Source: Alphaproteobacteria bacterium
Lineage (GTDB): Bacteria; Pseudomonadota; Alphaproteobacteria; Ferrovibrionales; Ferrovibrionaceae
Reading direction: 5' to 3'
DNA: 49,973 nucleotides
Assembly (NCBI GenBank): GCA_947473805.1
Contig: CANJGB010000026.1
Span: 1 to 49,973 of the forward strand
In this document: positions 4,035 through 48,807 of the stretch, piece by piece
Layout: every line of letters starts with the position of its first letter
Numbering within the stretch: position 1 is the stretch's first letter
Translations under genes and position numbers: made by a program
The notes under the pieces: generated by a model
Databases searched by the model: none
Seen by the model: only the letters and a program-made list of their open reading frames with translations
Told to the model about the DNA's origin: nothing

Positions 4035-4928
4035 TCATACAACATTCGTGCCGTAGTACAACATCACTGTATGACGCGCCTCGGCGAAGAACAGCCAACG
4101 CTCAACCAGAAGACCTATGAGCGCCGAAAGCGCCGCAATTATGGCGAATGGCGTGACCAGAAATGAGACAAGCAACAGCAGCCCCGGCACGATGGCCCCG
4201 AGCAAGAGGGCAAGCCGACGCAACCGTGCCGCATGCTTGCGCGCGATGCGGAACCCCATCTCGCGTTGCAGGTAGTTCTCCTCGGTGTGCGGCGGGTCCA
4301 GCGGCCGCACGGTGCCCAGCTTGCCAAGGCCCGTCGCGCTGCCGATATCGGGCCCGGTTTGCGGCCGGTCGATGGAGCGCCAGTAGAACAGCTTGACCGC
4401 TGCCCAGGCTGCGAGCGCGACCAGCGCAGCCACGCGTCCCGCAACACCGGCGTCAAGCGCCGCCCAGACCGCCGCTCCCGACGCGAATGCCCCCGCGAGA
4501 TAGCCGGGTACAACCCACGGATCGCGCCACTGCCGCACCGGTTTGATCGTGGCATAGATCATCGCGGTCGCCACGACCGTTGCGACGGCCAGCAGCAGCG
4601 CAACCACGGCGGCAAACATGGCCAGCACCCACTGCCAGTACAGCGCGGCGAAGAACCAAAGGCAGACCGGCACCGTGGCCGCGGCCAGTATCCCCTCACG
4701 CGACAGCCATGAGGAACGCCCCTGGCTGAACGCCCGCCATGCGCGCTCCGGCCGGCCGAGATGGAAGGTCGAGCTCAACGTGCCGCCGCCGATCAGCGCC
4801 AGCGCAAGTACGCCGGACAGAAGCGATGGCTCCGCCCCCAGCAGCAAGGCGATTGCAGCAATGCCGAGCAAGCCGAAACCCGCGCCGGAGGCGACCGTGA
4901 AAAAGATGACTGAATAGGCGGGATGCAC
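4035..4928 (-). CDS. soeC: DmsC-family membrane anchor, probable sulfite dehydrogenase subunit SoeC
   Basis: This is a 297-residue integral membrane protein with about eight hydrophobic segments, typical of the DmsC quinone-binding anchors of molybdoenzymes (SVIFFTVASGAGFGLLGI at the start, HLGRPERAWRAF after the second helix). It starts at a GTG (4926-4928), 15 bases after soeB. It would attach the SoeAB heterodimer to the cytoplasmic face of the membrane and pass electrons to quinone. The DmsC family assignment is firm. The substrate assignment rests on the operon: SoeA has no Tat signal and tusA is upstream. The alternative is another DMSO-reductase-type complex. Confidence 0.8.
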   Translation of the reverse strand: MHPAYSVIFFTVASGAGFGLLGIAAIALLLGAEPSLLSGVLALALIGGGTLSSTFHLGRPERAWRAFSQGRSSWLSREGILAAATVPVCLWFFAALYWQWVLAMFAAVVALLLAVATVVATAMIYATIKPVRQWRDPWVVPGYLAGAFASGAAVWAALDAGVAGRVAALVALAAWAAVKLFYWRSIDRPQTGPDIGSATGLGKLGTVRPLDPPHTEENYLQREMGFRIARKHAARLRRLALLLGAIVPGLLLLVSFLVTPFAIIAALSALIGLLVERWLFFAEARHTVMLYYGTNVV

Positions 4929-4943
4929 GATGGACCGGTCGGT

Positions 4944-26699: not shown

Positions 26700-28952
26700 C
26701 TAGCCCACCTTGGCCTGCGGCAGCGGCGAATCAGCCGCATCGACGCCCGGAAATACCAGCGAAATGCTGGCACCCGGCGCGCCGCCGTCGGTGTTTGCAT
26801 CGGCCAGAATCAGGGTGCCGCCATGTTCTTCCATGATCTTCTTCACGATTGCCAGTCCCAGCCCGGTCCCCTTGGTGCGTGTCGTAACGTACGGCTCGGT
26901 CAATCGCTCCCGGTTGTTTTCGGGCAGTCCCTTGCCGTTGTCGGTGACGGTCAGCACGATCTGGTTTGTCTGGTCGCGCCGCACCGAAACCGCGATGCGG
27001 CCCTTGAAGGGTTCGGCGGCGGGATCCGCGCGGCGGCCCTCGATGGCATCCGCTGCGTTCTGCAGCAGATTGGTCAGCGCCTGCGCCACCTGGCGGCTGT
27101 CGCAGCGAACGACAAGATCGTGTTCCGGCAGATCGACCACATAGTCGATGTCGCTGTTCGCAACCTGCTGCATGAAAATGCCCTGGCGCGCCAGTTCAAC
27201 CAGGTTCTCTTGCTTGAACGTCGGCGTCGGCATGCGCGCGAAGGCCGAGAACTCGTCCACCATGCGGCCGATATCGCCGACCTGGCGGATGATCGTGTCG
27301 GTGCACTTCAGGAAGACGTCCTTGTCCGACACGACTTCCTTCAGGTACTTGCGCTTCAGCCGCTCGGCGGAAAGCTGGATCGGCGTCAGCGGATTCTTGA
27401 TCTCGTGCGCGATGCGCCGAGCCACGTCCGCCCAGGCGGCGGTGCGCTGCGCCGAGACCAGGTCCGTCAGATCATCGAAGGTGACGACATAGCCATTGGT
27501 GTCGGCGCCGACTTTCTCGCTCGAGACCCGCACCGCAAGGTTGCGCGTCTTCCCCTTGCGCAGCACCGTCACCTGGCCCTGCGACTGGCGGTCCGGCCGC
27601 ACCATAGCTTCGGCGAAGAGCGCGGCCATTTCGGGCACGGCGTCAGGGAAGCGCCGCCCCACCAGGTCTTCGGCACCGATATCCAGCAGGTGCAGGGCCG
27701 ACCGGTTAAGCAGCGTCACATTGCCATCCGTCCCGATGGCGATGACGCCGGCGGACACGCCCGCCAGCACCGCCTCGGTAAACCGGCGGCGGTCGTCCAG
27801 CGTGCGGTTGGCATCGACCAGTTCCGAGCGCTGCGCCGAGAGCTGGCTGGTCATCCGGTTGAAGGCGCGGCCCAGCAGGCTCATCTCGTCGTCGGCCCGC
27901 CCTTCCACCGCGCGGGCCGAGAAGTCTCCTTCGCGCACCCGTTCGGCCGCTGCGATCAGACTGCCGATCGGCCGCACCAGCCGGGTCGCGATCCACAGAC
28001 CGAAGCCGACCGCGGCCAGCAGTACCAGCAGCGACACCACCACGAACAACGCGACGACGGTAATTTCGATGCCCGTCCGCCGTTGTTCCAGCTGGGCATA
28101 TTCGCGCGCCGCCTGCCGGGTACGCGACAGGTGGTCCAGCACGCGCGCATCCACATACCGGCCGACGAACAGATAGGTGTCGGGAAAGCCATCTAGCTTG
28201 ACCAGCGCGCGTACGCGGTCATCGGCTTCCGAGGTCTGCAGCACCACCTCGCCCTTGCTGGCCTGTTCCAGGGCGCGGGGCGACAGACGCTCGAACTCCA
28301 TCGAGAAGCTGAGGCTGGACCGCGCGATGACCCGGCCGCCAAGGTCGAACACGATGGCCTCGCCAAGATTGCGCACGCGCACCTGCGCGCTCAGCACCTG
28401 GCTCAGCAGGGCCGGGTTGCGCACGAGGCGCGCCGCGTCGCGGTTCAGGTCCGCCGCCATCGACAGCACGTCGGCGCGGATCAGGTTGATATGTTCCTGG
28501 ATATAGGCCTCGGCCACGGCCACGGATTCCCGCACCGCCGTATTGGCGCGGCTGCCGAACCAAGCTTCCAGCCCGTACTGGAAGAACAGCGTGGAAATGA
28601 CCGCCATGATGATCGCGGGCGTAATGGCGACCAGGCTGAACAGGGCGACCAGCCGGGTGTGGATTTTCGAGCCTGCCGCCCCCTGCCGCCGCTCCACCCA
28701 CAGGCGCACCAATTGCCAGCCGAGGACCGCCATCAACAGCAGCAGGACGATCAGGTCGACGACGACGAAGATCCGCGCGGCGCGCCCGCTCAGGCCGTTC
28801 GGCATGATTGTGAAATATGACGCGACGCCGCAGCCGAGCGCGACCACGGCCAGGATAATGGCGACGCGGCCGACTACGCGCTTGCTGCGCGTCCAAGCCA
28901 GCAGGCGCTCGATTATCGGCCGGCCAATAAAGGGTTCGGTATGAACCGCCAT
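26700..28952 (-). CDS. ntrY: NtrY sensor histidine kinase
   Basis: This 750-aa membrane sensor opens with two to three hydrophobic segments within residues 20-110 (VGRVAIILAVVALGCG; LIVLLLLMAVLGWQLV). A periplasmic domain and another membrane segment at about 295-320 follow. Then come a HAMP domain (RLVRPIGSLIAAAERVREG), a PAS domain, the H-box AHEIKNPLTPIQLSAERLK and the ATPase domain with GTGLGLAIVKKIMEEHGG. It phosphorylates NtrX in nitrogen, nitrate or redox control. The unusual N-terminal length is typical of NtrY. The 85-base gap to ntrC may hold its own promoter. Confidence 0.94.
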   Translation of the reverse strand: MAVHTEPFIGRPIIERLLAWTRSKRVVGRVAIILAVVALGCGVASYFTIMPNGLSGRAARIFVVVDLIVLLLLMAVLGWQLVRLWVERRQGAAGSKIHTRLVALFSLVAITPAIIMAVISTLFFQYGLEAWFGSRANTAVRESVAVAEAYIQEHINLIRADVLSMAADLNRDAARLVRNPALLSQVLSAQVRVRNLGEAIVFDLGGRVIARSSLSFSMEFERLSPRALEQASKGEVVLQTSEADDRVRALVKLDGFPDTYLFVGRYVDARVLDHLSRTRQAAREYAQLEQRRTGIEITVVALFVVVSLLVLLAAVGFGLWIATRLVRPIGSLIAAAERVREGDFSARAVEGRADDEMSLLGRAFNRMTSQLSAQRSELVDANRTLDDRRRFTEAVLAGVSAGVIAIGTDGNVTLLNRSALHLLDIGAEDLVGRRFPDAVPEMAALFAEAMVRPDRQSQGQVTVLRKGKTRNLAVRVSSEKVGADTNGYVVTFDDLTDLVSAQRTAAWADVARRIAHEIKNPLTPIQLSAERLKRKYLKEVVSDKDVFLKCTDTIIRQVGDIGRMVDEFSAFARMPTPTFKQENLVELARQGIFMQQVANSDIDYVVDLPEHDLVVRCDSRQVAQALTNLLQNAADAIEGRRADPAAEPFKGRIAVSVRRDQTNQIVLTVTDNGKGLPENNRERLTEPYVTTRTKGTGLGLAIVKKIMEEHGGTLILADANTDGGAPGASISLVFPGVDAADSPLPQAKVG

Positions 28953-29037
28953 CTCCCGTGCATCCTTATGGCACCGACTCGGCGCCGAGGTGTGGCCGGG
29001 AATCTACACTATGTGGCGGACCAGTTGCAAAACTACA

Positions 29038-30480
29038 TCACTTGAGGCCGCGCACAACCTGTATCTCGAGATCGCGGATCTTCTTGCGCAGCGTATTGCG
29101 GTTGAGGCCCAGCATCTGCGCAGCCTTGATCTGGTTGCCACGGGTGGCAATCAGGCTCAGCGACAGCAGCGGCTTTTCCACTTCGCGCAGGATGCGGTCG
29201 TACAGGCCCGGCGGCGGCGTGCCGTCGCCATGGGCGGCGAAATAGCGGCTGAGATGCCCCTCGATCGTGGTCGAGAGATTGTCCTCCGGCTTCGACTCAT
29301 CCGAGCGCATGGCCGGCACCGGTTCGGCCAGTTCGACCTCGATAACGTCGACGCCAATGACCTCGTCGGAATACAGCGCCGTCAGGCGGCGAACCATGTT
29401 CTCGAGCTCGCGCACGTTACCCGGCCAGTGGTAGCGCTTCATGCGCTCCATGGCCTCGGGCGCGATAATCTTTTGTGGCAGGCCCTGCTTGCCGGCCTCG
29501 GTCATGAAGTGGCGCACCAGGTCGGGCACGTCTTCGGTCCGCTCGCGCAGAGGCGGCAGGCGCACCGGCACCACGTTCAGGCGATAGAAAAGATCCTCGC
29601 GGAACAGGCCCTGGACGATCAGCTGGCGCAGGTCGCGGTTGGTCGCGGCGATGATGCGCACATCGGTGCGGATCGGCGTGCGGCCGCCGACGGTCGTGTA
29701 CTCACCCTGCTGCAGCACGCGCAGCAGGCGGGTCTGCGCCTCCAGCGGCATGTCGCCGATTTCGTCGAGGAACAGCGTGCCGCCATCGGCCTGTTCGAAC
29801 CGGCCGGATGAGCGGGTGGTCGCCCCGGTGAAGGCGCCCTTCTCGTGGCCGAACAACTCGCTTTCGATCAGCTCGCGCGGAATTGCCGCCATGTTGACCG
29901 CGACGAAGGCGCCATTGCGGCGCTTGCCGTAGTCGTGCAGCGCGCGCGCCACCAGTTCCTTGCCGGTACCGGATTCGCCGGAAATCATCACCGTCAGGTC
30001 GGTGCCCATGAGGCGCGCCAGGACGCGGTAGATGTCCTGCATCGCCGGCGAGCGGCCGATCAGCGGCAGTTTCTCTTCTTCCTCGGCCAGGGCCTCGCTG
30101 GCCGGGCCGCGGCGCGGCGCGTTGATGGCGCGGTCCACGACCGCGAGCACTTCCTTGAGGTCGAACGGCTTGGGCAGATATTCGTAGGCGCCGCGCTCGT
30201 TCGCCTTCACGGCGGTCAGCAGCGTGTTCTGCGCGCTCATCACGACGATGGGAAGATCGGGCCGCAGCTTCTTGATGCGCGGCAGCATGTCGAGGCCGTT
30301 CTCGTCGGGCATCACCACATCGGTGATGACCATGTCGCCCTCGCCGTCCTGGATCCAGCGCCACAACGTGGCGGCATTGCCCGTCGAACGCACGTCGTAG
30401 CCGACGCGCCCAAGCGCCTGATCGAGAACGGTGCGGATCGACCGGTCGTCGTCGGCGATAAGTATGGTTCCCTTGGCCAT
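29038..30480 (-). CDS. ntrC: NtrC nitrogen regulator
   Basis: This 480-aa sigma-54-dependent activator has a receiver domain with D54 ([12 protein letters not shown]), an AAA+ domain with Walker A GESGTGKE, the intact GAFTGA loop ([14 protein letters not shown]), [11 protein letters not shown], and a C-terminal Fis-type HTH ([24 protein letters not shown]). The start at 30478-30480 ([12 protein letters not shown]) fits the family; the longer ORF to 30555 overlaps ntrB. Phosphorylated by NtrB under nitrogen limitation, it activates glnA, amtB-type and similar genes. It lies 5 bases after ntrB. Confidence 0.96.
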
Positions 30481-30485
30481 GAATC

Positions 30486-31592
30486 TTATACCGGCTTGGC
30501 TGCCTGGACCGGTAGCCTGACGTGGAACACCGTACGCCGCTCCTTGCTCTCGCATTCGATCACGCCACCATGGTCGCCGATGATCTTGGCAACCAGTGCA
30601 AGTCCCAGGCCAGTGCCATTGGGCTTCGTTGTCACAAACGGATCGAACAGGTGCGGCATCAGGTCTTCTGGCACGCCAGAGCCATTATCCTGCACGCTTA
30701 CCTCAAGCGGCAGGTGCACGCGGTGCGCCGAACCGCCCACCGCGAGACGTACGCCGTGCCGGTAAGCGGTGGTCAAAACGATCTCGCCGCCCTGGGCAGG
30801 TGCGGCTTCTGCCGCATTTTTAATCAGATTAAGAAAAACCTGGATCAATTGGTCGCGGTCGCCCAGCACCGGCGGCAGGGACGGGTCATAGTTTTCGGCA
30901 AAGCGGATCTGCTTCGCAAAGCCCGCCTGCGCAACCTTGCGCACATGCTCCAGCACCTGGTGGATGTTGACGGGGCCACGCGGCACCGGCCGTTTGTCCG
31001 AGAACACTTCCATGCGGTCGACCAGGGCGCAGATACGGTCGGCCTCGTCGCAGATCAGCCGGGTCAGTTCACGATCCGCCTGCGAGGCATTCTGCTCCAG
31101 CAGCTGCGCCGCACCGCGGATGCCCGACAGCGGGTTCTTGACTTCATGCGCCAGGATCATGGCCATGCCGGTGACCGAGCGCGCCGCGCCGCGATGGGTA
31201 AGCTGGCGGTCGATTTTCGCCGCCACACTGCGCTCGTCGAGATGAATCACGATGAACCCCGGAGATTCGCTGATCGGTGAAACCTGGATGTCGACGGCAC
31301 GCAGGCCAGCCTTGGGCGTGCCCAGTTCGACCCCGTATTCGCTGACGCCGTAGCCGTTCTCACGGACCTGGTCGACCAGCGCCAGCAGCGGGCTGCCGAA
31401 CGGCGCGAGATCGTCCAGCCGCTGGCGACCCAGCAACAGCGCAGAGGTGTCGAAGAACTGCTCGGCCGCCGGGTTGGCGTAGGTGATGTCACCGTTCGCG
31501 GCCACGACGATAATGGGATCGCTCAGGGCGCTGATGACCGCCAGCGCATCGGGATGCGGATGGTAAAGCTTGGTGACCTTGGCATTTGCCAT
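30486..31592 (-). CDS. ntrB: NtrB nitrogen sensor kinase/phosphatase
   Basis: This 368-aa soluble kinase has a PAS domain at about 15-125 ([22 protein letters not shown]), H-box [21 protein letters not shown]-box NLIKNAAEA, and DNGSGVP plus [18 protein letters not shown]. It lacks membrane segments, as expected for NtrB. Controlled by PII, it phosphorylates or dephosphorylates NtrC. It overlaps the dusB stop by one base, so the two are translated together. Confidence 0.96.
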
Positions 31593-32578
31593 CAGGCGGC
31601 AGCCTTTTCCAGCAGTGGTTCATAGAACTCGTCGATGGCGCGACGCGCGCCCTCGACATCGTCGATCTGGTTGATGCGCGTGCGGAACTCGGCAGAACCG
31701 GGCAGGCCCTTCGAGTACCAGGAGATGTGCTTGCGCGCGATCTTGCGGCCGGTCTCGACGCCGTAATGCGTGAGCATGCCCTCGAAATGTTCCTGCACCG
31801 TGTCGCGCTGCTCGTGCAGCGACGGCGATGCCACGCGCCGTCCGTTCTTCAGGAATTCCATCACCTGGCGCAGGAACCAGGGGCGGCCATAGGCGCCGCG
31901 GCCAACCATCACGCCATCGGCATTCGACAGGCGCAGCGCTTCTTCCGCGGCCTCGACCGTCGTGATGTCGCCGTTCACGATGACCGGCAGCGACACCGCC
32001 GCCTTCACGTTGCGGATATAGGCCCAGTCGGCACTGCCTTCGTAAAACTGGCAGCGCGTGCGGCCGTGAACGGTGATCATCTTGATCCCGCAATCCTCGG
32101 CAATGCGCGCCAGTTCCGGCGCGTTGCGGGTGTTGTCGTCCCAGCCCATGCGCATCTTCAGCGTCACCGGCAGCTTCACCGCGCGCACGGTGGCCTCGAT
32201 CAGGCTGCGCGCATGCGCAAGGTCGCGCATGAGCGCAGAGCCGGCATGGCCGTTCACGACCTTCTTCACCGGACAGCCCATGTTGATGTCGATGATGGCC
32301 GCGCCGCGGTCCTCGTTCAGCTTCGCCGCCTCGGCCATGACGCCGGGCTCACAGCCGGCAAGCTGCACGGCCATGGGGAATTCTTCTGGCGTATTGGAAG
32401 CCATGCGCATCGTGGTGCGGTTCTCGCGCACCATCGCTTCGCTCGCGATCATCTCCGACACGACCAGTCCGGCACCGGACCGCTTCACCAGGCGGCGAAA
32501 CGGCAGATCCGTGACTCCGGACATGGGCGCGAGGATGACGGGACTCTCCAAAACAACGGGGCCAACGTGGATGACCAT
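31592..32578 (-). CDS. dusB: tRNA-dihydrouridine synthase of the DusB (NifR3) family
   Basis: This 328-aa flavoenzyme reduces uridine to dihydrouridine in the tRNA D-loop. It shows the FMN-barrel start [17 protein letters not shown], the catalytic-cysteine region [36 protein letters not shown] and VNGDI, then [12 protein letters not shown]. The gene heads the dusB-ntrB-ntrC cluster, the classical 'nifR3-ntrBC' order of alphaproteobacteria. Confidence 0.95.
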
Positions 32579-32632
32579 ATTTTAGGCACTTCCTTTCCAT
32601 GCCTACATAATGAGCATGCTAGCTTGCGCTTG

Positions 32633-32645
32633 GTTGCACTGCAAC
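32633..32645. promoter_or_regulatory. Small palindrome in the divergent dusB/ispDF promoter region
   Basis: GTTGCACTGCAAC is a perfect 6+1+6 palindrome in the 114-base gap between dusB (minus) and ispDF (plus). Its place between two divergent operons suits an operator, for example for autoregulation of the ntr unit, but it does not match the NtrC consensus TGCACC-N5-GGTGCA well. Function unproven. Confidence 0.3.
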
Positions 32646-32692
32646 ATCAAAAGACGAATCGGTTACTGCACTTCACAGTTCATAATGAGGCG

Positions 32693-33886
32693 ATGGAATC
32701 AGCCCTCGTTTCGCCACTTCGCGTCGCTGCCTTAATTGTAGCCGGCGGTCGCGGCACCCGTGCCGCCGGCCCGATCCCCAAGCAATACCGCCAGATTGCC
32801 GGGCGGCCCCTGCTCGGCTGGACCCTGGACAGTTTCGCCCGCCACCCGGCTGTCGGGCGCGTAATGACCGTCATTCATCCGGACGATATGGCGCATTACA
32901 CCCAGGCAAGCCAAGGGTTTTCCCTGTCTCCACCGGCCCTCGGCGGGGCATCCCGGCAACAGTCCGTGCTGAACGGGCTTGAGCGCCTGGCGGCAGACCC
33001 GCCGGACGTCGTGCTGATCCATGACGGCGCCCGGCCTCTGGTCTCCGCCGCCCTGATCGACCGCGTCCTGGCCGGCCTGGCCGAGGCCGACGGCGCCATT
33101 GCCGCCCTGCCCGTTACCGACACGCTGAAGGGTCACCGCGACGGTCTCGCCGCCACCGGACCCGACCGCACAGGCCTGTGGCGGGCGCAGACCCCGCAGG
33201 CCTTCCGGTTCGAGGCGATTCTGGCCGCCCACCGCAGTGCATCGGGTGCCGACCTCACCGACGACGCGGCGGTGGCGGAGCGCGCCGGTCTGCGGGTAAA
33301 GCTGGTCGCCGGCACGGAGGACAATTTCAAGGTGACGCAGCCGGAGGATTTCGAGCGCCTGGAGACCGCGTTGCTGGCGCGTCTCGGCGATGTGCGTACC
33401 GGCATGGGCTTTGATGTGCACGCCTTCGCCGACACGCCGCGCGATCTCATGCTGGGCGGCATCAAGGTGCCGCACGACCGCGGCATGGCAGGCCACAGCG
33501 ATGCCGACGTGGCGCTGCACGCCATTGTCGATGCCCTGCTCGGCGCCATTGCCGACGGCGATATCGGCCGCCACTTCCCGCCCAGCGATCCACGCTGGAA
33601 GGGTGAGGACTCCGCCACCTTCGCGCGCTTCGCCGCATCGCGCGTCGCGGCAAAGGGCGGCGTCATCGCCCACGTCGATCTCACCATCATCTGCGAGGCG
33701 CCCAAGGTCTCGCCGCACGCCGCCGCCATGCAGGCGCGCATCGCCGACCTGCTCGGCGTAAGCACGAACCGCGTCAGTGTGAAGGCGACCACCACCGAAA
33801 AACTCGGCTTCACCGGCCGCCGCGAAGGCATCGCCGCGCAAGCGGTCGCGACGGTGCGATTGCCCCTTGGCGACCATGCTGCCTGA
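32693..33886 (+). CDS. ispDF: Bifunctional IspD/IspF enzyme of the MEP isoprenoid pathway
   Basis: This 397-aa fusion carries two steps of the non-mevalonate pathway. Residues about 10-230 are IspD (2-C-methyl-D-erythritol 4-phosphate cytidylyltransferase): AALIVAGGRGTRAAGPIPKQY and later LIHDGARPLVS. Residues about 235-397 are IspF (cyclodiphosphate synthase): MGFDVHAFAD, HSDADVALHAIVDALLGA and IGRHFPPSD, with zinc ligands in DVHAF and HSD. The fused form is common in alphaproteobacteria. The ATG at 32693 has TGAGG upstream. It heads a plus-strand operon with the LysE-type gene, pgpA and cinA. Confidence 0.96.
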   Translation: MESALVSPLRVAALIVAGGRGTRAAGPIPKQYRQIAGRPLLGWTLDSFARHPAVGRVMTVIHPDDMAHYTQASQGFSLSPPALGGASRQQSVLNGLERLAADPPDVVLIHDGARPLVSAALIDRVLAGLAEADGAIAALPVTDTLKGHRDGLAATGPDRTGLWRAQTPQAFRFEAILAAHRSASGADLTDDAAVAERAGLRVKLVAGTEDNFKVTQPEDFERLETALLARLGDVRTGMGFDVHAFADTPRDLMLGGIKVPHDRGMAGHSDADVALHAIVDALLGAIADGDIGRHFPPSDPRWKGEDSATFARFAASRVAAKGGVIAHVDLTIICEAPKVSPHAAAMQARIADLLGVSTNRVSVKATTTEKLGFTGRREGIAAQAVATVRLPLGDHAA

Positions 33887-39716: not shown

Positions 39717-41123
39717 CTAGAAATGGAGCGTGCGCCCGTAGGCGTCAAGCACGCTCTCGTGCATCATTTCCGACAGCGTCGGGTGCGGGAACACCGTGTG
39801 CATCAGCTCGGCTTCCGTGCTTTCCAGTGTCCGGGCAATGACATAGCCCTGGATCAGCTCGGTCACCTCGGCGCCGATCATGTGCGCGCCCAGCAATTCG
39901 CCGGTTTTGGCGTCGAACACCGTCTTCACCAGGCCCTCGGGCTCGCCCAGCGCAATGGCCTTGCCGTTGCCGATGAACGGGAAGCGGCCGACCTTTACCG
40001 CGTGGCCCTTGGCCTTGGCGGCCGCCTCGGTCAGGCCGACGCTCGCCACCTGCGGCATGCAATAGGTGCAGCCGGGGATATTGCCGGTGTCCATCGGGTG
40101 CACGTCCTTCTGGCCGGCGATCTTCTCGACGCAGACCACGCCCTCGTGCATCGCCTTGTGGGCCAGCCAGGGCGGGCCGGTCAGGTCGCCGATGGCGTAC
40201 AGGCCCGGCTCCGCCGTGCGGCTGTATTCATCGACCACGACGTGGGTCTTCTCGACCCTAGCCTTGGTCTTTTCCAGGCCAATATTCTCGACATTGCCGA
40301 CAATGCCGACAGCCAGGATGACGCGGTCGACAGTAATGCTCTGCTCCTTGCCGGCCTTGTCCTTCAGCGTCGCGGTAACGCTGTCGGCGCCGCGGTCCAG
40401 CTTCGTCACCGTGGTGGCAAGGTGGATCTTCATGCCCTGCTTCTCGAACGCCTTCTTGGCGAGGGCGGAAATCTCCTCGTCCTCCACCGGCAGGACGCGG
40501 TCCATCACCTCGACCACCGTCACCTCGACGCCAAGTGTGCGGTAGAAGCTGGCGAACTCGATGCCGATGGCCCCGCTGCCGACGACCAGCAGCGATTTCG
40601 GCAAAGCCTGCGGCACCATCGCTTCCTTGTAGGTCCAGACCAGCTTGCCGTCCGGCTCCAGCCCCGGCAGTGAGCGCGCCCGCGCGCCGGTCGCGAGAAT
40701 AATGTGCTTGGCGCTGAGCTCCGCCACCGCCTGGCCATCCTTCGCCACGTTCAACTTGCCCGCGCCCGCCAGCGTCGCATGACCGTAGAATACGGTGATC
40801 TTGTGCTTCTTCATCAGCGACTTGACGCCGGAATTGAGCTGGCCCGCCACCTTGCGCGACCGCTCCACGATTTTCGGCAGGTCGATCTTCGCGCCTTCGA
40901 CCTTGAACCCATAGGCCTCCGCATGGCGGATCAGGTGCCACACCTCGGCCGAGCGCAGCAGCGCCTTGGTCGGGATGCAACCCCAGTTCAGGCAGATGCC
41001 GCCCAGCAGGTCGCGCTCGACGACCGCGGTCTTCAGCCCCAGCTGCGCCGCGCGAATGGCTGACACATAGCCGCCCGGCCCGCCGCCGACGACGACGAGA
41101 TCGAATTTTGCCGTTTCGGTCAT
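39717..41123 (-). CDS. lpdA: Dihydrolipoyl dehydrogenase (E3)
   Basis: This 468-aa FAD enzyme reoxidises dihydrolipoamide and reduces NAD. It has the FAD-binding GGGPGGY at residues 13-19, redox pair C44 and C49 (GGICLNWGC), NAD domain VVGSGAIGIEFASFYRTLG, GLYAIGDLTGPPWLAHKA and the C-terminal H-E pair region HTVFPHPTLSE. It is the E3 subunit of the pyruvate dehydrogenase complex encoded upstream. A repeat element of about 110 bases separates it from pdhC. Confidence 0.97.
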   Translation of the reverse strand: MTETAKFDLVVVGGGPGGYVSAIRAAQLGLKTAVVERDLLGGICLNWGCIPTKALLRSAEVWHLIRHAEAYGFKVEGAKIDLPKIVERSRKVAGQLNSGVKSLMKKHKITVFYGHATLAGAGKLNVAKDGQAVAELSAKHIILATGARARSLPGLEPDGKLVWTYKEAMVPQALPKSLLVVGSGAIGIEFASFYRTLGVEVTVVEVMDRVLPVEDEEISALAKKAFEKQGMKIHLATTVTKLDRGADSVTATLKDKAGKEQSITVDRVILAVGIVGNVENIGLEKTKARVEKTHVVVDEYSRTAEPGLYAIGDLTGPPWLAHKAMHEGVVCVEKIAGQKDVHPMDTGNIPGCTYCMPQVASVGLTEAAAKAKGHAVKVGRFPFIGNGKAIALGEPEGLVKTVFDAKTGELLGAHMIGAEVTELIQGYVIARTLESTEAELMHTVFPHPTLSEMMHESVLDAYGRTLHF

Positions 41124-41274: not shown

Positions 41275-42528
41275 TCACAGCATCATCGTCAGCGGGTCTT
41301 CGATGAAGCCCTTGAACACCTTCAGCCAGCGCGCGCCCAGCGCGCCGTCCACCACGCGGTGGTCGCAGGACATCGTGCAGGTCATCACGTTGGCGATGGC
41401 CAGCGCGCCGTCCTTCACCACCGGGCGCTGCTCGCCCGCGCCGACCGCCAGGATGCAGGCCTGCGGCGGGTTGATCACGGCGGTGAAGTGCTTGATGCCG
41501 AACATGCCGAGGTTCGAGATCGAGAAGCCGCCGCCCTGATACTCTTCCGGCTTCAGCTTGCCGGCCTTCGCCTTCTGCCCCAGTTCGCGCATGTCGGACG
41601 AGATGGTGGCCAGGCCCTTGGTGTCGGCCTTGCGGATGATCGGCGTGATCAGCCCGGCCTCGATGGCCACCGCAATCGAGATATCGACATTGGTGAACTG
41701 CACGATGCGGTCGCCCGCCCAGCCGGCATTCACTTCCGGCATCTTGCGCAGCGCCAGCGCCGAGGCGCGGATGATGAAGTCGTTGACCGACAGCTTCACC
41801 CCCTCGCCCGCCTTCGAGTTCAACTGCTGGCGCAAGGCCAGCAGCGCATCGAGCTCGCAGTCGATGGTCAGGTAGTAGTGCGGAATATCGCGCTTCGAGT
41901 CCGTCAGCCGCCGCGCGATGGTCTTGCGCATCGAGGTCAGCGGCACGTCGGCATGCGGATCGAATATCTGCACCGCGCCCGGCGCGGCCGGCGCCGCAGC
42001 GGCTGCCAAAGGCGCGGCCGCCTTCGCGACAGGACCCTTGGCCAGAGCGGCCTCGACATCCACCTTCACGATGCGGCCATGAGGGCCACTGCCGGCAACA
42101 TTCTTCAGGTCCAACCCGGCGTCTCGCGCTATCCGCTTCGCCAGCGGCGAGGCCATGACGCGGTCACCGCTGGCAACCGCCGCCGCAGGCTTCGGTGCCT
42201 CGGCTTTCGGCGCGTCTGCCTTGGGCGCCTCGGCTTTCGCTGCAACGGGTGCAGCCGGCGCGGCCTTGATCGAACTGGCGCTCTCGCCCTCGCCCAGCAG
42301 CACCGCGATGGGTGCGTTCACCGCGACATTCTCGGTGCCGGCAGCAACCAGGATCTTGCCGACCTTGCCCTCGTCGGCGGCCTCGAACTCCATGCTGGCC
42401 TTGTCGGTCTCGATCTCGGCGATGACCTGACCGGCCTTCACCGCGTCGCCCTCTTTCACCAGCCACTTCGACAGCTTGCCCTCGGTCATCGTGGGCGACA
42501 GTGCCGGCATCAGGATTTCGGTTGGCAT
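41275..42528 (-). CDS. pdhC: Pyruvate dehydrogenase E2, dihydrolipoamide acetyltransferase
   Basis: This 417-aa E2 has one lipoyl domain at residues 1-80 with lipoyl lysine K43 (ETDKASMEF), then an Ala/Pro/Lys linker. A peripheral-subunit-binding domain ([28 protein letters not shown]) and the catalytic domain ending in [16 protein letters not shown] (active His in DHRVVDG) follow. It forms the core of the complex and transfers the acetyl group to CoA. The start at 42526-42528 ([11 protein letters not shown]) is supported by the conserved lipoyl domain. It lies 10 bases after pdhB. Confidence 0.97.
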
Positions 42529-42538
42529 CGCGCCCTCC

Positions 42539-43894
42539 TCAGCGGTAGCAGACCTGCCGCGCGGCGGCGACGACGTCGTCCACCTGCGGCAGAGCCAGCT
42601 TTTCGAGGTTGGCGGCATAGGGCATCGGCACATCCTTGCCGGTCACCCGCACCAGCGGCGCGTCGAGCAGGTCGAACCCCTGCTCCATGATCACCGCGGC
42701 GATCTCGGAGCCGATGCCGGCCACCGGCCAGCCCTCCTCCACCGTCACGATGCGGTTGGTCTTGGCGACCGACTTGATGATCGTCGCCGTGTCCATCGGT
42801 CGGATCGTGCGCAGGTCGATGACCTCCGCCTCGATGCCGAGCGCCGACAGTTTCTCCGCCGCCGCCAGCGCCATGCCGGTCGAGATCGAGAAGCCGACAA
42901 TGGTCACGTCGCGGCCCGGCCGCGCGACCTTGGCCTTGCCGATGGGCACCAGCCAGTCATCAATCTCGGGCACGTCGAAGGTGCGGCCGTAGAGGATCTC
43001 GTTCTCGAGGAAGATGATGGGGTTCGGGTCGCGGATCGCGCTCTTCAGCAAGCCCTTCGCATCAGCCGCCGAATAGGGCGCGACGACCTTCAGGCCCGGA
43101 ATATGCGCATACCACGAGGCGTAGCATTGCGAGTGCTGTGCCGCCACGCGCGCCGCCGCGCCGTTCGGACCGCGGAAAACAATCGGGCAGCCCATCTGGC
43201 CGCCCGACATGTACAGCGTCTTCGCCGCCGAGTTGACGATATGGTCGATGGCCTGCATCGAGAAGTTGAAGGTCATGAACTCGACAATGGGCTTCAGGCC
43301 GCCGAACGCCGCGCCGACGCCCAGGCCGGCAAAGCCGTGTTCGGTAATCGGCGTGTCGATGACGCGCTTGCCGCCGAATTCCTCCAGCAGGCCCTGGCTG
43401 ATCTTGTAGGCGCCCTGGTACTGGGCGACCTCCTCGCCCATCAGGAACACCTTGTCATCGCGCCGCATCTCCTCGGCCATGGCGTCGCGCAGCGCGTCGC
43501 GCACGGTCATGCTGCGCATCTTGGTGCCGGCGGGCACTTCTTCCTCGGCCGGCGCCGCCGGCGTCGGCGCGGCGGCGACCGCCGATTTCGCCTCGGCCGG
43601 TTTCGTCGCCTCGGCCTTTGCGGGCGATGCCGCGGCGGGCTTCGCCACCTCGCCCTCGCCGTCAAGCACCGCGATGGGCGTGTTCACCGCGACATTCTCG
43701 GTGCCGGCGGCGACCAGTATCTTCCCGACCTTGCCCTCGTCGGCGGCCTCGAACTCCATGCTGGCCTTGTCGGTCTCGATCTCGGCGATGACCTGGCCCG
43801 CCTTCACCTCGTCGCCCTCTTTCACCAGCCACTTGGCCAGCTTGCCCTCGGTCATGGTCGGCGACAGCGCCGGCATCAGGATTTCAATACCCAT
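42539..43894 (-). CDS. pdhB: Pyruvate dehydrogenase E1 beta with N-terminal lipoyl domain
   Basis: This 451-aa E1-beta carries its own lipoyl domain at residues 1-80 (K43 in ETDKASMEF), a linker rich in Ala/Pro/Glu, and the transketolase-like beta subunit from about residue 128 ([22 protein letters not shown]). The latter includes [15 protein letters not shown] and the C-terminal domain. The extra lipoyl domain is a known alphaproteobacterial trait. Its DNA is nearly identical to the lipoyl domain of pdhC (about 8 differences in 158 bases by eye), a sign of recent duplication or gene conversion. Confidence 0.97.
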
Positions 43895-43897
43895 GGC

Positions 43898-44890
<993 letters not shown>

Positions 44891-44978
44891 TCATCCTCCC
44901 AGCCCGGCCCGTACAGGGGCCGCACAATCACTATGGCCCCCGCAAACCCCGCCAGCAATGCCGCGAAAGGTGATTGCC

Positions 44979-45006
44979 ATAATTTCAGTTAATTAACTGA
45001 AATTAT
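44979..45006. promoter_or_regulatory. Perfect 28-bp palindrome over the pdhA promoter
   Basis: The two 14-base arms, ATAATTTCAGTTAA and TTAACTGAAATTAT, are exact reverse complements with no spacer. A consensus -10 box TATAAT (minus strand, 45002-45007) overlaps its right end, with a weak -35 (TTTCAA, 45026-45031) 18 bases upstream; the start site would fall inside the palindrome, 88 bases or more before the pdhA ATG. That is the usual place of a repressor operator. The alternative is a 5'-UTR hairpin. Confidence 0.7.
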
Positions 45007-45031
45007 ATTAATTCTTTGCAAGCGATTGAAA
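45002..45031 (-). promoter_or_regulatory. Probable pdhA promoter
   Basis: TATAAT (45002-45007, perfect -10) with TTTCAA (45026-45031, three of six -35 matches) at an 18-base spacing, on the minus strand ahead of pdhA. Sequence match only. Confidence 0.5.
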
Positions 45032-45035
45032 CAGC

Positions 45036-45061
45036 AACAAAAAGCGGCCCGAAAGGGCCGC
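45036..45061 (-). terminator. Intrinsic terminator of ftsB
   Basis: On the minus strand GCGGCCC, loop TTTC, GGGCCGC (45044-45061) is followed by TTTTTGTT. It lies 25 bases after the ftsB stop and separates that gene from the pdhA promoter. Confidence 0.85.
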
Positions 45062-45086
45062 CGAATCCGTAACCATAAATTTAAGC

Positions 45087-45428
45087 TTAGCGCGCCGGCG
45101 TCGTCTTTCCGGTCGGCGGCGCGTTGTAAATGACCACTTCGTCCGGCCGCATCAGGCCCAGCGAACCGCGTGCCAGCTCATCCAGCATGTCGGCGTCCAG
45201 CCCTTCGGTGCGCAGCAGCGCCACCTTCTGCTCCATGCGCCGGCGCTCGGCCGTGGTGTCGGCCAGGATCGCCTTGCTCTCGGCAATGGCCTGGTTCAGG
45301 CGGGTATAGGCGTTGAGGCCGCGCTCGCCTTCCATGGCGTGATAGCCGAAATAGCCGATCGCCCCCGTGCACAGCACCGGAATGATGGCTGGCAACGCGC
45401 GGCGGCGGATTTCGTGCATCAAGCTCAT
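45087..45428 (-). CDS. ftsB: FtsB/DivIC-family septum formation initiator
   Basis: This 113-aa bitopic membrane protein has one membrane segment at about residues 12-29 (ALPAIIPVLCTGAIGYFGYHA). A coiled coil (LNQAIAESKAILADTTAERRRMEQKVALLR) and the family-typical ELARGSLGLMRPDEVVIY follow. It belongs to the FtsB-FtsL-FtsQ division complex. Its place upstream of the pdh cluster is common in alphaproteobacteria. It ends in its own terminator. Confidence 0.9.
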   Translation of the reverse strand: MSLMHEIRRRALPAIIPVLCTGAIGYFGYHAMEGERGLNAYTRLNQAIAESKAILADTTAERRRMEQKVALLRTEGLDADMLDELARGSLGLMRPDEVVIYNAPPTGKTTPAR

Positions 45429-45602
45429 GTGGGAATCGAATCATTTCCCCGAGTCGGCGTCAAGCCCTCAATACCTGATTTGGCGGCTGAATCAGTTATT
45501 TATAACAAAATATACTCTAGGCATGATGTCGCAGCTCTGAATACAGCACCGCCCGGCAGATCGCGGTTGCCGCAGCTTCTATATTTTGATATTTCTGGAA
45601 TC

Positions 45603-45971
45603 ATGGAATCAAAGATCGCCATCGCCGCCCTGGGCGCCCTCGCCCACGACACAAGGCTGGGCCTGTACCGCCTGCTGGTCCAGGCGGGGCCCGAGGGCAT
45701 GGCCGCCGGCACGCTGGCCGAGACGCTGGGCGTCCCGCCCTCGTCGCTGTCGTTCCACCTCAACGACCTGATGCATGCCGGGCTGATCGAGCAGCGCCGC
45801 GCCGGCCGCCACCTGTTCTATGCGGCGGACTTCGCGCGCATGAACGCGCTGGTCGGTTTCCTGACCGAGAATTGCTGCGGCGGGCGTCCCGACCTGTGCC
45901 CGCCCACCGTCTGCGCTCCGGCGAAAGGAACGAAAAATGGCAAAGCGCTTTCACGTGAATCTGTCGGTTGA
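45603..45971 (+). CDS. arsR: ArsR-family arsenic-responsive repressor
   Basis: This 122-aa winged-helix repressor carries LAETLGVPPSSLSFHLNDLMHAGLIEQRRAGRHLFYA as its recognition helix and wing. C91, C92 and C99 (ENCCGGRPDLC) lie near the C-terminus. From memory, the Acidithiobacillus ferrooxidans ArsR uses a similarly placed C95-C96-C102 set to bind As(III). It should release the arsenic operon when trivalent arsenicals bind. The ATG at 45603 follows a CTGGAA. Its 3' end overlaps arsI by 35 bases. Confidence 0.92.
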   Translation: MESKIAIAALGALAHDTRLGLYRLLVQAGPEGMAAGTLAETLGVPPSSLSFHLNDLMHAGLIEQRRAGRHLFYAADFARMNALVGFLTENCCGGRPDLCPPTVCAPAKGTKNGKALSRESVG

Positions 45972-46401
45972 GAAAATCGACGCCTCAATTGCGTTCTACT
46001 CCAATCTGTTCGGCACGCCGCCGGCGGTGGTGAAGCCGGACTACGCCAAGTGGATGCTGGACGATCCGCGGGTCAACTTCGCGATATCGACGCGGGGCGG
46101 CAAACCGGGCGTCGATCACCTCGGCATCCAGGTCGATGACGCCGATGAGCTGAATGACCTCGCGGCGCGTCTGCACGCGGCGGGCGAAGCGACGCTGGAG
46201 CAGGTTGGCACCACCTGCTGCTATGCGAAATCGGACAAGAACTGGGTCCACGACCCCCAGGGGCTCGCGTGGGAAACCTTCCGCACACTGGGCAGCGCCA
46301 CCACCTATGGCGATCCCGAGGCGGCCCCGACCGGCACTGCCTGCTGCACCCCGGCCGCAAAGGCCGCGCCGTCTGCTTCTTCTTCCTGCTGCGCAGCCTG
46401 A
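45937..46401 (+). CDS. arsI: ArsI-type C-As lyase (glyoxalase/VOC fold)
   Basis: This 154-aa vicinal-oxygen-chelate protein demethylates trivalent methylarsenicals to As(III) using Fe(II) and oxygen. The metal ligands of ArsI are matched by H6 (KRFHVNLSV), H61 (GVDHLGIQV) and E113 (LAWETFRTL), and the paired substrate cysteines by C94-C95 (TTCCYAKSDKNWVHDP). The C-terminus adds two more Cys-Cys pairs (TACCTP; SSCCAA), seemingly an extra arsenic-binding tail. CadI-like cadmium-induced proteins share the fold; the operon favours ArsI. Confidence 0.85.
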   Translation: MAKRFHVNLSVEKIDASIAFYSNLFGTPPAVVKPDYAKWMLDDPRVNFAISTRGGKPGVDHLGIQVDDADELNDLAARLHAAGEATLEQVGTTCCYAKSDKNWVHDPQGLAWETFRTLGSATTYGDPEAAPTGTACCTPAAKAAPSASSSCCAA

Positions 46402-46408
46402 GGCCGAC

Positions 46409-46924
46409 ATGACCCAACCCCTCAACGTCCTGTTTCTCTGCACCGGCAATTCCGCCCGCTCGATCCTGGCCGAGGCGATCCTGAACTTTCGCGGCCAGGG
46501 AAAATTCCGCGCCTTCAGCGCCGGCAGCCACCCGAAGGGCGAGGTGCATCCCATGGCGCTCGACCTCATCCGCGCGATGAAGATGCCCACCGAGGGCCTC
46601 GGCTCGAAGTCGTGGGACGAGTTCGCCAGGCCCGGCGCGCCGCAAATGCACTTCATCATCACCGTCTGCGACAACGCCAAGGGCGAGGTCTGCCCGATCT
46701 GGCCCGGCATGCCGATGACCGCCCACTGGGGCGTGCCCGACCCCGCCGCCGCCGAGGGCAATGCCGCCGAGCGCGCCCTCGCCTTCCGCGACGCCTTCGC
46801 GATGCTGGCGCGGCGCATCGACCTGTTCACCAGCCTGCCGTTCGAGACGCTGTCGAAAATGGCGCTGCAGAAGCGGGTCGACCGCATCGGCACGCTGGAC
46901 GTCGACAGCACCGACGCCGCCTAG
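46409..46924 (+). CDS. arsC: Arsenate reductase, thioredoxin-linked type
   Basis: This 171-aa low-molecular-weight phosphatase-fold enzyme reduces arsenate to arsenite. It has the P-loop CTGNSARS near the start (nucleophile cysteine at residue 11). A second cysteine pair lies in TVCDNAKGEVCPIWPG, and the general acid lies in GVPDPAAA. It lies 7 bases after arsI. The C-terminus has a longer tail (ALQKRVDRIGTLDVD) than minimal family members. Confidence 0.93.
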   Translation: MTQPLNVLFLCTGNSARSILAEAILNFRGQGKFRAFSAGSHPKGEVHPMALDLIRAMKMPTEGLGSKSWDEFARPGAPQMHFIITVCDNAKGEVCPIWPGMPMTAHWGVPDPAAAEGNAAERALAFRDAFAMLARRIDLFTSLPFETLSKMALQKRVDRIGTLDVDSTDAA

Positions 46925-46933
46925 GCGCTCCAC

Positions 46934-47602
46934 GTGGACAATCTGCGCCGACGTGTCGCGGCCGAGGCGCTGGGCACCGCGCTGCTGCTGGTGGCCGTCG
47001 TCGGCTCGGGCATCATGGCCGAGCGGCTGAGCGGTGGAAACGTGGCCTTGGCCCTGCTGGCCAATGCCATCGCCACCGGCGCGGCGCTGTATGCGCTGAT
47101 CACCCTGTTCGTCCCGCTGTCGGGCGCGCAGTTCAACCCCGTCGTCACGCTGGTCCTGGCGGTGCAGGGCGCCGAACGGCGCGGCGCCATCGTGCCGCTG
47201 ATCGCGGCGCAAGTGGTGGGCGCCATTGCCGGCGTCGCCGTGGCGCACCTGATGTTCGACCTGCCGCTGCTGCAGGCCGGCCTCAAGGCGCGCACAGGAC
47301 TCGGCCAGTGGGCCGGCGAGTTCGTCGCCACGTTCGGCCTGGTCATGGTGGTGGAACTGGGCCGGCGGCAGACGCCCGCCGCCCTGCCCGCCCTCGTCGC
47401 CGCCTATATCACCGGCGCGTACTGGTTCACCTCGTCCACGTCGTTCGCCAACCCGGCAGTCACCATCGCCCGCAGCCTGACGCAAAGCTTCGCCGGCATC
47501 GCCCCCGCCGACGCGCCCGCCTTCATCGCGGCGCAGCTCCTCGGGGCCTTCGCCGCCATGCTGGTCTGCCGCTGGCTGGTGCGTGCGAAGGACCCTGTTT
47601 GA
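46934..47602 (+). CDS. aqpS: Aquaglyceroporin, probable arsenite channel AqpS
   Basis: This 222-aa MIP-family channel starts at a GTG (46934). It has six membrane segments and two half-helix loops: the first reads FNPVVT (NPV instead of NPA), the second ANPAVT. In Sinorhizobium meliloti the ars operon contains AqpS, which lets As(III) leave the cell down its gradient after ArsC reduction. The position between arsC and the transporter supports that role here. The altered first NPA motif may change selectivity. Confidence 0.88.
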   Translation: MDNLRRRVAAEALGTALLLVAVVGSGIMAERLSGGNVALALLANAIATGAALYALITLFVPLSGAQFNPVVTLVLAVQGAERRGAIVPLIAAQVVGAIAGVAVAHLMFDLPLLQAGLKARTGLGQWAGEFVATFGLVMVVELGRRQTPAALPALVAAYITGAYWFTSSTSFANPAVTIARSLTQSFAGIAPADAPAFIAAQLLGAFAAMLVCRWLVRAKDPV

Positions 47603-48807
47603 GTGCAGTCACCGAACATGTCGAGGCACCCGGCGGCTGGGCCGGTGTCGCCGGAATCGCCGTGGCCCAGGTCGTGTCCTGGGGCAGCATCTATTACACC
47701 TTCTCGCTGTTCGTCGGCCCGATGGAACAGGACCTGGGCTGGAGCCGCGCGACGCTGAACGGCGCGCTGTCCCTCGGCCTGTTCGCGGCCGGCGTCGCCG
47801 CCCTGCCCGTCGGCGCCCATATCGACCGCCACGGCGGCCGCGCGCTGATGTCGCTCGGCTCGCTCGCCGCGGCGCTGCTGTTCGCCGCCTGGTCCGGCGT
47901 GGACTCCGTCATCGCCTTCTACCTGCTGTGGCTCGGCCTCGGCATTACCATGGCGGCCACGTTGTACGAGCCCGCCTTCGCCGTGCTGACGCGGAAATTC
48001 CCGCGCAGCTTCCGCACCCGCATCGCGGTCGTGACTCTCGCCGGCGGTTTCGCCAGCACGGTGTTCATCCCGCTGGGCCAGGGACTGATCGAGACATTGG
48101 GCTGGCGCGACGCGCTGATGGCGCTGGGCCTCATCAACCTCGCCCTCGGCCTGCCGCTGCATTTTCTGGCGTTGCGCGAGCCGCCGCGCCACGCCGGGCG
48201 CACCGCCGCGAAAACATCGACCGGTGCGCTGCGCCGCGCGCTGCACCGCCCCGCCTTCTGGGGCCTGGCGCTCGCCTATGTGATCTACTCGGCGGCCTTC
48301 TCGGCGGTGACGTTCCACCTCGTCCTGCTGCTGTCGGAGCGTGAGCTCGCCATGGCGACGGTGGTCGGCATCTTCGCCCTTGTCGGCCCGGCCCAGGTCG
48401 GCGGCCGGATCGCGCTGATGGCCTTGGGGCGCCGGCTGACCACGTCGCTCGCCGGCCGCATCGTCTTCGTGCTGTTCCCGCTGTCGATCCTGCCGCTGCT
48501 CGCGCACGGCCCGCTGTGGAGCCTGGTCGCCTTCGCGCTGCTGTACGGCGCCGCCAATGGCGTGATGACCATCGTGCGCGGCGCCATCCTGCCCGACCTG
48601 TTCGGCCATGCCGGCTATGGCGCGATCAGCGGCGCCATCACCATGCCCTCGATGATCGCCAAGGCGGCCGCCCCGCTCGGCGCCGCGCTGCTGTGGCAGG
48701 CCGGCGGCTACGATGCGGTGTTGTGGACGGTGTTCGCCGGCGGCGTGATCGCGGCGGCGGGCTTCTGGTTCGCCGTCTCGCGCCCGGTGGCGGGCAGCGC
48801 CGGCTAG
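47599..48807 (+). CDS. Major facilitator transporter of the arsenic operon
   Basis: This 402-aa MFS protein has about twelve membrane segments (AVAQVVSWGSIYYTFSLFVGP at the start; GAHIDRHGGRALMSLG in the first cytoplasmic loop). The TTG at 47599 overlaps the aqpS stop (TTGA) and has AAGGA six bases upstream, which supports it. It shares the operon with arsR, arsI, arsC and aqpS, so it should export an arsenical or a related organic anion. The usual partner genes of ArsJ are absent, so the substrate is unknown. Confidence 0.82.
   Translation: MSAVTEHVEAPGGWAGVAGIAVAQVVSWGSIYYTFSLFVGPMEQDLGWSRATLNGALSLGLFAAGVAALPVGAHIDRHGGRALMSLGSLAAALLFAAWSGVDSVIAFYLLWLGLGITMAATLYEPAFAVLTRKFPRSFRTRIAVVTLAGGFASTVFIPLGQGLIETLGWRDALMALGLINLALGLPLHFLALREPPRHAGRTAAKTSTGALRRALHRPAFWGLALAYVIYSAAFSAVTFHLVLLLSERELAMATVVGIFALVGPAQVGGRIALMALGRRLTTSLAGRIVFVLFPLSILPLLAHGPLWSLVAFALLYGAANGVMTIVRGAILPDLFGHAGYGAISGAITMPSMIAKAAAPLGAALLWQAGGYDAVLWTVFAGGVIAAAGFWFAVSRPVAGSAG

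Follow-up and report, generated by a model that had tools for sequence, protein, structure and literature searches.

A conserved 21-bp inverted repeat upstream of pdhA, doubled in one alphaproteobacterial genome, is probably a protein-bound operator

The region upstream of pdhA in this alphaproteobacterial genome carries a 21-bp inverted repeat, ATTAAC-N9-GTTAAT, in two overlapping copies; its sequence and spacing are conserved among relatives, and its place is almost exclusively at pdhA. Judged by comparison of sequences, the element is a real and conserved unit, probably a protein-bound operator, that is doubled in this genome. We think it likely that the two copies are paired, overlapping operators at which a dedicated regulator of pyruvate dehydrogenase (PDH), encoded at an unlinked locus, would control pdhABC and possibly lpd with them. 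The perfect 28-bp palindrome that the earlier note had placed on the pdhA promoter is a by-product of the operator doubling and represents two overlapping sites, not one. Pyruvate dehydrogenase gates the entry of carbon into the TCA cycle, and a 21-bp site that occurs almost only once per genome would offer a direct bait for the regulator.

The palindrome, ATAATTTCAGTTAATTAACTGAAATTAT, occupies positions 44979 to 45006 of the window (the whole stretch of 49,973 bp that was analysed) and consists of two 14-base arms that are 100% complementary and have no spacer, exactly as the earlier note had read it from the same first base, although the end given there, 45007, was one base too far. The G+C content of the window is 65.9%, and its second-longest spacer-free perfect palindrome measures 14 bp. 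The longest palindromes in 60 dinucleotide shuffles of the window ranged from 14 to 24 bp, with 28 bp reached in none of the 60, and when the 200 bp around the palindrome were shuffled 20,000 times the maximum was 26 bp. A distal operator, ATTAATATAATTTCAGTTAAT (44992 to 45012, minus strand), departs from ATTAAC-N9-GTTAAT by one mismatch, and a promoter-proximal operator, ATTAACTGAAATTATGGCAAT (44973 to 44993, minus strand), by two, its left arm being perfect and its right arm degenerate. The centres of the copies lie 19 bp apart; because the copies overlap by two bases, the distal copy's right half meets the left half of its proximal neighbour head to head at the junction, and the two are read as a 28-bp palindrome. 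A second site as good as the proximal copy, within 5–40 nt, was obtained in 14 of 5000 shuffles.

The 28-bp palindrome was ruled out as the conserved unit. Allowing up to three mismatches, its central 20-mer matched in six of 61 genomes; just two of these have the match at pdhA, its own genome (G000) and G012, and in G012 the match overlaps that genome's own 21-bp operator; an exact search with the 20-mer of the genome_contigs collection, from which our genome is possibly omitted, gave a single match in an unrelated Pontibacter. As a 28-mer the palindrome is private to this genome, so that the expectation of finding it upstream of pdhA in relatives failed for the 28-mer itself and held for its component element, ATTAAC-N9-GTTAAT.

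That element, with ATTAACYGAAATTCAGTTAAT as its best form and consensus, is the unit conserved upstream of pdhA in relatives. The sample comprised the 45 of 61 genomes in which pdhA is matched over nearly its full length at 65% identity or more; the 16 genomes without such a match fell outside it, and G047 was left out because its pdhA match was split. A consensus was first read by eye from the upstream regions of 30 of these genomes and then tested on all 45; in 25 of the 45, the 350 bp upstream of pdhA contain the element with at most two mismatches. Over all 45 regions, the mismatches to ATTAAC-N9-GTTAAT numbered none in 11, one in six, two in eight, three in four and more in 16. None of the 45 control segments, taken from the first 350 bp inside pdhA, reached this threshold, and in 100 sets of dinucleotide-shuffled upstream regions the element appeared on average in 0.51 of 45 regions (maximum 3). 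When spacers of 3 to 20 were tested with at most one mismatch, a spacer of 9 was found in 17 of 45 regions and a spacer of 18 in two, while every other length gave zero. The element is not universal, being absent at up to two mismatches from 20 of the 45 genomes that have a pdhA ortholog; it is present in 16 of 17 genomes of the bacterium's own family versus 9 of 28 genomes of other families. Across the 25 sites, the six outer positions on each side are nearly fixed except for the terminal base. The inner arm pairs are symmetric in 22–25 of the 25 sites and the outermost pair in 17, and at three sites both terminal bases have changed together (to C..G once and G..C twice). Two operator copies upstream of pdhA, with starts 49 bp apart, were also seen in a second genome (G353, L162 positions 4871–4940).

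Searches beyond pdhA pointed to near single-target use. Among 23 operator-bearing genomes, 40 places matched with arms of at most one mismatch, 20 of them perfect and 20 with one mismatch; because these genomes were chosen for having the operator, their pdhA matches are there by construction, and the result lies in how few other sites there are. Nineteen of the perfect-arm places were at pdhA and one was at maeB of G068, and those with one mismatch comprised two at pdhA, one at maeB of G423 and 17 elsewhere, the last group not exceeding a reversed-pattern control (33 places). In 386 genomes of the class, the perfect-arm site ATTAACY..RGTTAAT occurred in 44, at pdhA in 27 and elsewhere in 17, and the reversed control matched in 15 of 386; 15 of the 17 non-pdhA loci have a G+C fraction of at most 0.46, where chance matches are expected, the exceptions being G350 (0.52) and G131 (0.55). 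Additional motif matches in L055 and L056 fall within a coding ORF and were discounted as chance matches.

The two maeB sites come from two species of a single genus, and both stop 16 bp short of the ATG start codon, a position that fits a repressor better than an activator. These operator copies were located at L084 1987–2023 and L176 2067–2103. The G068 protein combines a malic enzyme domain with a phosphotransacetylase domain and scores below the cut-off of the NCBIfam subfamily for NADP-dependent malic enzyme (944 versus 1178). As a second target in one genus, maeB would fit a regulator of pyruvate supply that possibly acts there as a repressor.

In the window, pdhA is the next gene downstream of the palindrome. 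It lies on the minus strand at 43898–44890, with its ATG at 44890, and encodes pyruvate dehydrogenase E1 alpha (NCBIfam TIGR03182, above cut-off). Following it on the same strand are pdhB, for an E1 beta subunit with a lipoyl domain (42539–43894; NF008854, above cut-off), an ORF holding pdhC, for dihydrolipoyl acetyltransferase (41275–42633), whose real start is inside the listed ORF, and lpd, for dihydrolipoyl dehydrogenase (39717–41123), the last two being named by eye. An intrinsic terminator at 45043–45062 on the minus strand ends ftsB and separates it from the pdhA transcription unit, and pdhA therefore probably has its own promoter. No regulator gene stands between ftsB and pdhA, in agreement with the earlier note. 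The closest regulator-like gene is an ORF with an ArsR-type helix-turn-helix (HTH) domain at 45339–45971, on the opposite strand and beyond ftsB. It belongs to an arsenic-type cluster on the plus strand (45339–48807) with ArsR-type HTH, glyoxalase-fold, low-molecular-weight phosphatase (ArsC-type), MIP channel and MFS domains, and an imperfect inverted repeat, AATACCTGATT / AATCAGTTATT, at 45470–45500 just upstream of the ArsR-type gene may be an ArsR operator. Further along, after the pdh-lpd-lipA region, translations examined by eye revealed a cluster of ntrY, ntrX/ntrC, ntrB, dusB and ispDF-like genes (26700–33886).

The direction of control was approached through the promoter. A TTG-N16-18-NANNNT pair follows the operator by 9–22 nt in 16 of 25 genomes, against a mean of 2.5 and a maximum of 6 in shuffles, under a criterion chosen after looking at the data; ten of these 16 placements come from one genus and the remainder from five genera, and the window is counted through its proximal copy, the distal copy being 33 nt away and by itself a miss. 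In most genomes 13–15 nt separate operator and pair; the exceptions are G006 and G009, each with 9 nt, and G058, with 22 nt, or 13 nt by an alternative match of equal quality. The candidate −35 element of the window, TTGCTG (44953–44958, minus strand), is weak, with three of six positions matching TTGACA, and is followed after a 17-bp spacer by the putative −10 element CATAGT (44930–44935, minus strand; four of six to TATAAT). Together they match the consensus at 7 of 12 positions and begin 14 nt past the proximal and 33 nt past the distal copy; a strict promoter scan of 44850–45200 reported no promoter and also missed this pair. From these elements we infer a pdhA transcript start near 44923, from which the proximal and distal copies are centred near −60 and −79, respectively. 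The centre of the proximal copy is about 24 bp from the −35-like element, the same geometry as in relatives. Operator sites at −60 are typical of activators, and because the operator is centred near this position the regulator would activate pdhA rather than repress it. The overlapping pair would be bound by a protein devoted to the control of pdhABC(-lpd), which probably binds DNA as a symmetric dimer. The distal copy, 19 bp further up, would lie on roughly the same face of the helix, so that two dimers could bind side by side; if this is true, the two overlapping sites would give this genome a cooperative response.

This placement bears directly on the model of the earlier note, in which a repressor binds the 28-bp palindrome itself and blocks a promoter whose TATAAT overlaps the palindrome. 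The exactness of the palindrome is far beyond chance, a consensus TATAAT does overlap its end (minus strand, 45007–45002), and the maeB sites near the start codon in two species are repressor-like. The model is nevertheless unlikely, since the 28-mer was not found at pdhA in relatives save as the G012 operator, and the promoter-like pair lies downstream of the element in the 16 genomes in which it was recognised. The TATAAT is situated within the spacer of the distal operator and is not a conserved feature, being present in two of 25 operators; the scan gave it no −35 partner, and we judged it incidental. A transcript start within the palindrome, as formerly proposed, is likewise unsupported. 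What survives of that proposal is an operator-type element for pdhA; its place upstream of the promoter-like pair, where one could be recognised, favours an activator over a classic repressor.

Among the gene clusters listed for 20 neighbourhoods of 10–20 kb around pdh, as judged from all-against-all BLAST clusters and translation starts, none of a regulator-like kind recurred. The LysR genes found near pdhA in G050, G178 and G275 and in G003 and G012 are different, lineage-specific proteins.

One candidate for the regulator, with low probability, is VtlR/LsrB, a LysR protein conserved in alphaproteobacteria whose gene neighbours one resembling thioredoxin reductase. A site of the AAC-N9-GTT type and a position near −60 suit LysR proteins. 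In G079, a 1.2-Mb genome with the operator at pdhA, the only LysR found has relatives in G000, G033, G093, G113 and G129, all of them operator-bearing, at pairwise identities of 35–61%, and the operator-less genomes G027, G023 and G037 have no full-length match above 30% to it. The group is thus present in six of seven small or reference genomes with the operator and none of three operator-less genomes, in a comparison that covered 10 genomes and 20 of the 22 LysR genes of G000; the family may simply be universal. In G000 and G033 this LysR gene follows an ORF for a pyridine-nucleotide-disulphide oxidoreductase; we took this neighbour for trxB, the published neighbour of VtlR/LsrB, and therefore took the LysR for VtlR/LsrB. 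Against it, the box GCAT-N3-TG-N3-T given for VtlR/LsrB in passages of PMC7486931 and PMC8844928 does not occur in the operator consensus, and G221 has the operator, yet its single LysR falls in another group.

That the element acts in the leader RNA of pdhA, as a hairpin or attenuator, is slightly less probable again, in keeping with its standing as a lesser alternative in the earlier note. The palindrome RNA folds at −10.1 kcal/mol, and a stem would likewise account for the symmetric changes of the outer arm pair, but the sites of four relatives fold at only −0.5 to −6.6 kcal/mol, an Rfam search of 44800–45150 gave no match up to E = 1, no T run follows the palindrome, and the element would lie outside the transcript if the proposed promoters are right. 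ScfR proteins, of the RamB type, sense acyl-CoA esters, a natural signal for PDH, and in G050, G178 and G275 the operator is reached by the end of a LysR gene, which is confined to their genus as far as searched. That either is the regulator is very improbable: PF09856 (ScfR) was not found in the bacterium's own genome and is present in 7 of 25 operator-bearing versus 6 of 20 other genomes, with no link to the operator. A search with the G050 LysR at E 1e-25 gave no match in the bacterium's own genome, and beyond G050 nothing in 44 other genomes exceeded 38% identity to it.

On balance, we lean somewhat towards the reading that a transcription factor not yet described is common to many alphaproteobacteria, with its gene apart from its target and its main or only genomic site before the pyruvate dehydrogenase genes (and, in one genus, before a malic enzyme gene as well); it would be a counterpart of PdhR with an operator of its own and probably an activator. 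A search of the open-licence PMC literature found no dedicated alphaproteobacterial PDH operator.

Two regulators known from alphaproteobacteria resemble the proposed one in part. The VtlR/LsrB box is an operator located upstream of a −35 element in alphaproteobacteria, reported between −61 and −49 in the Sinorhizobium meliloti abcR1 promoter, and differs from the operator here in both sequence and targets. PhaR/AniA, which passages of PMC12542648 describe as affecting pyruvate dehydrogenase proteins positively in S. meliloti, has the published alphaproteobacterial site YGCRNYGCR, a sequence unrelated to the operator. Upstream of pdhA in the operator-less genomes G032 and G028 (L027, L029) we observed TTGCGGTGCA, which fits this PhaR motif, and a similar sequence, TTGCGCCGCAGCA, is found just after the operator in G050.

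The closest parallel is with PdhR, which also has a palindromic operator before the pyruvate dehydrogenase genes and PDH as its core target. The PdhR box is AATTGGT-N3-ACCAATT, whereas the conserved site here is ATTAAC-N9-GTTAAT; the PdhR site lies over the promoter and the operator here upstream of the candidate −35 element; and there is no linked regulator gene, pdhA in the window being preceded by ftsB and not by pdhR. As site, position and gene linkage all differ, we did not assign the operator to the PdhR regulon. PdhR is a GntR-family protein with its operator at pdhR-aceEF-lpd in gammaproteobacteria; according to a passage of PMC5343134, that operon is its main or sole target in many lineages. 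The best reading of the operator pair upstream of pdhA is that it would be like PdhR in logic and not in site.
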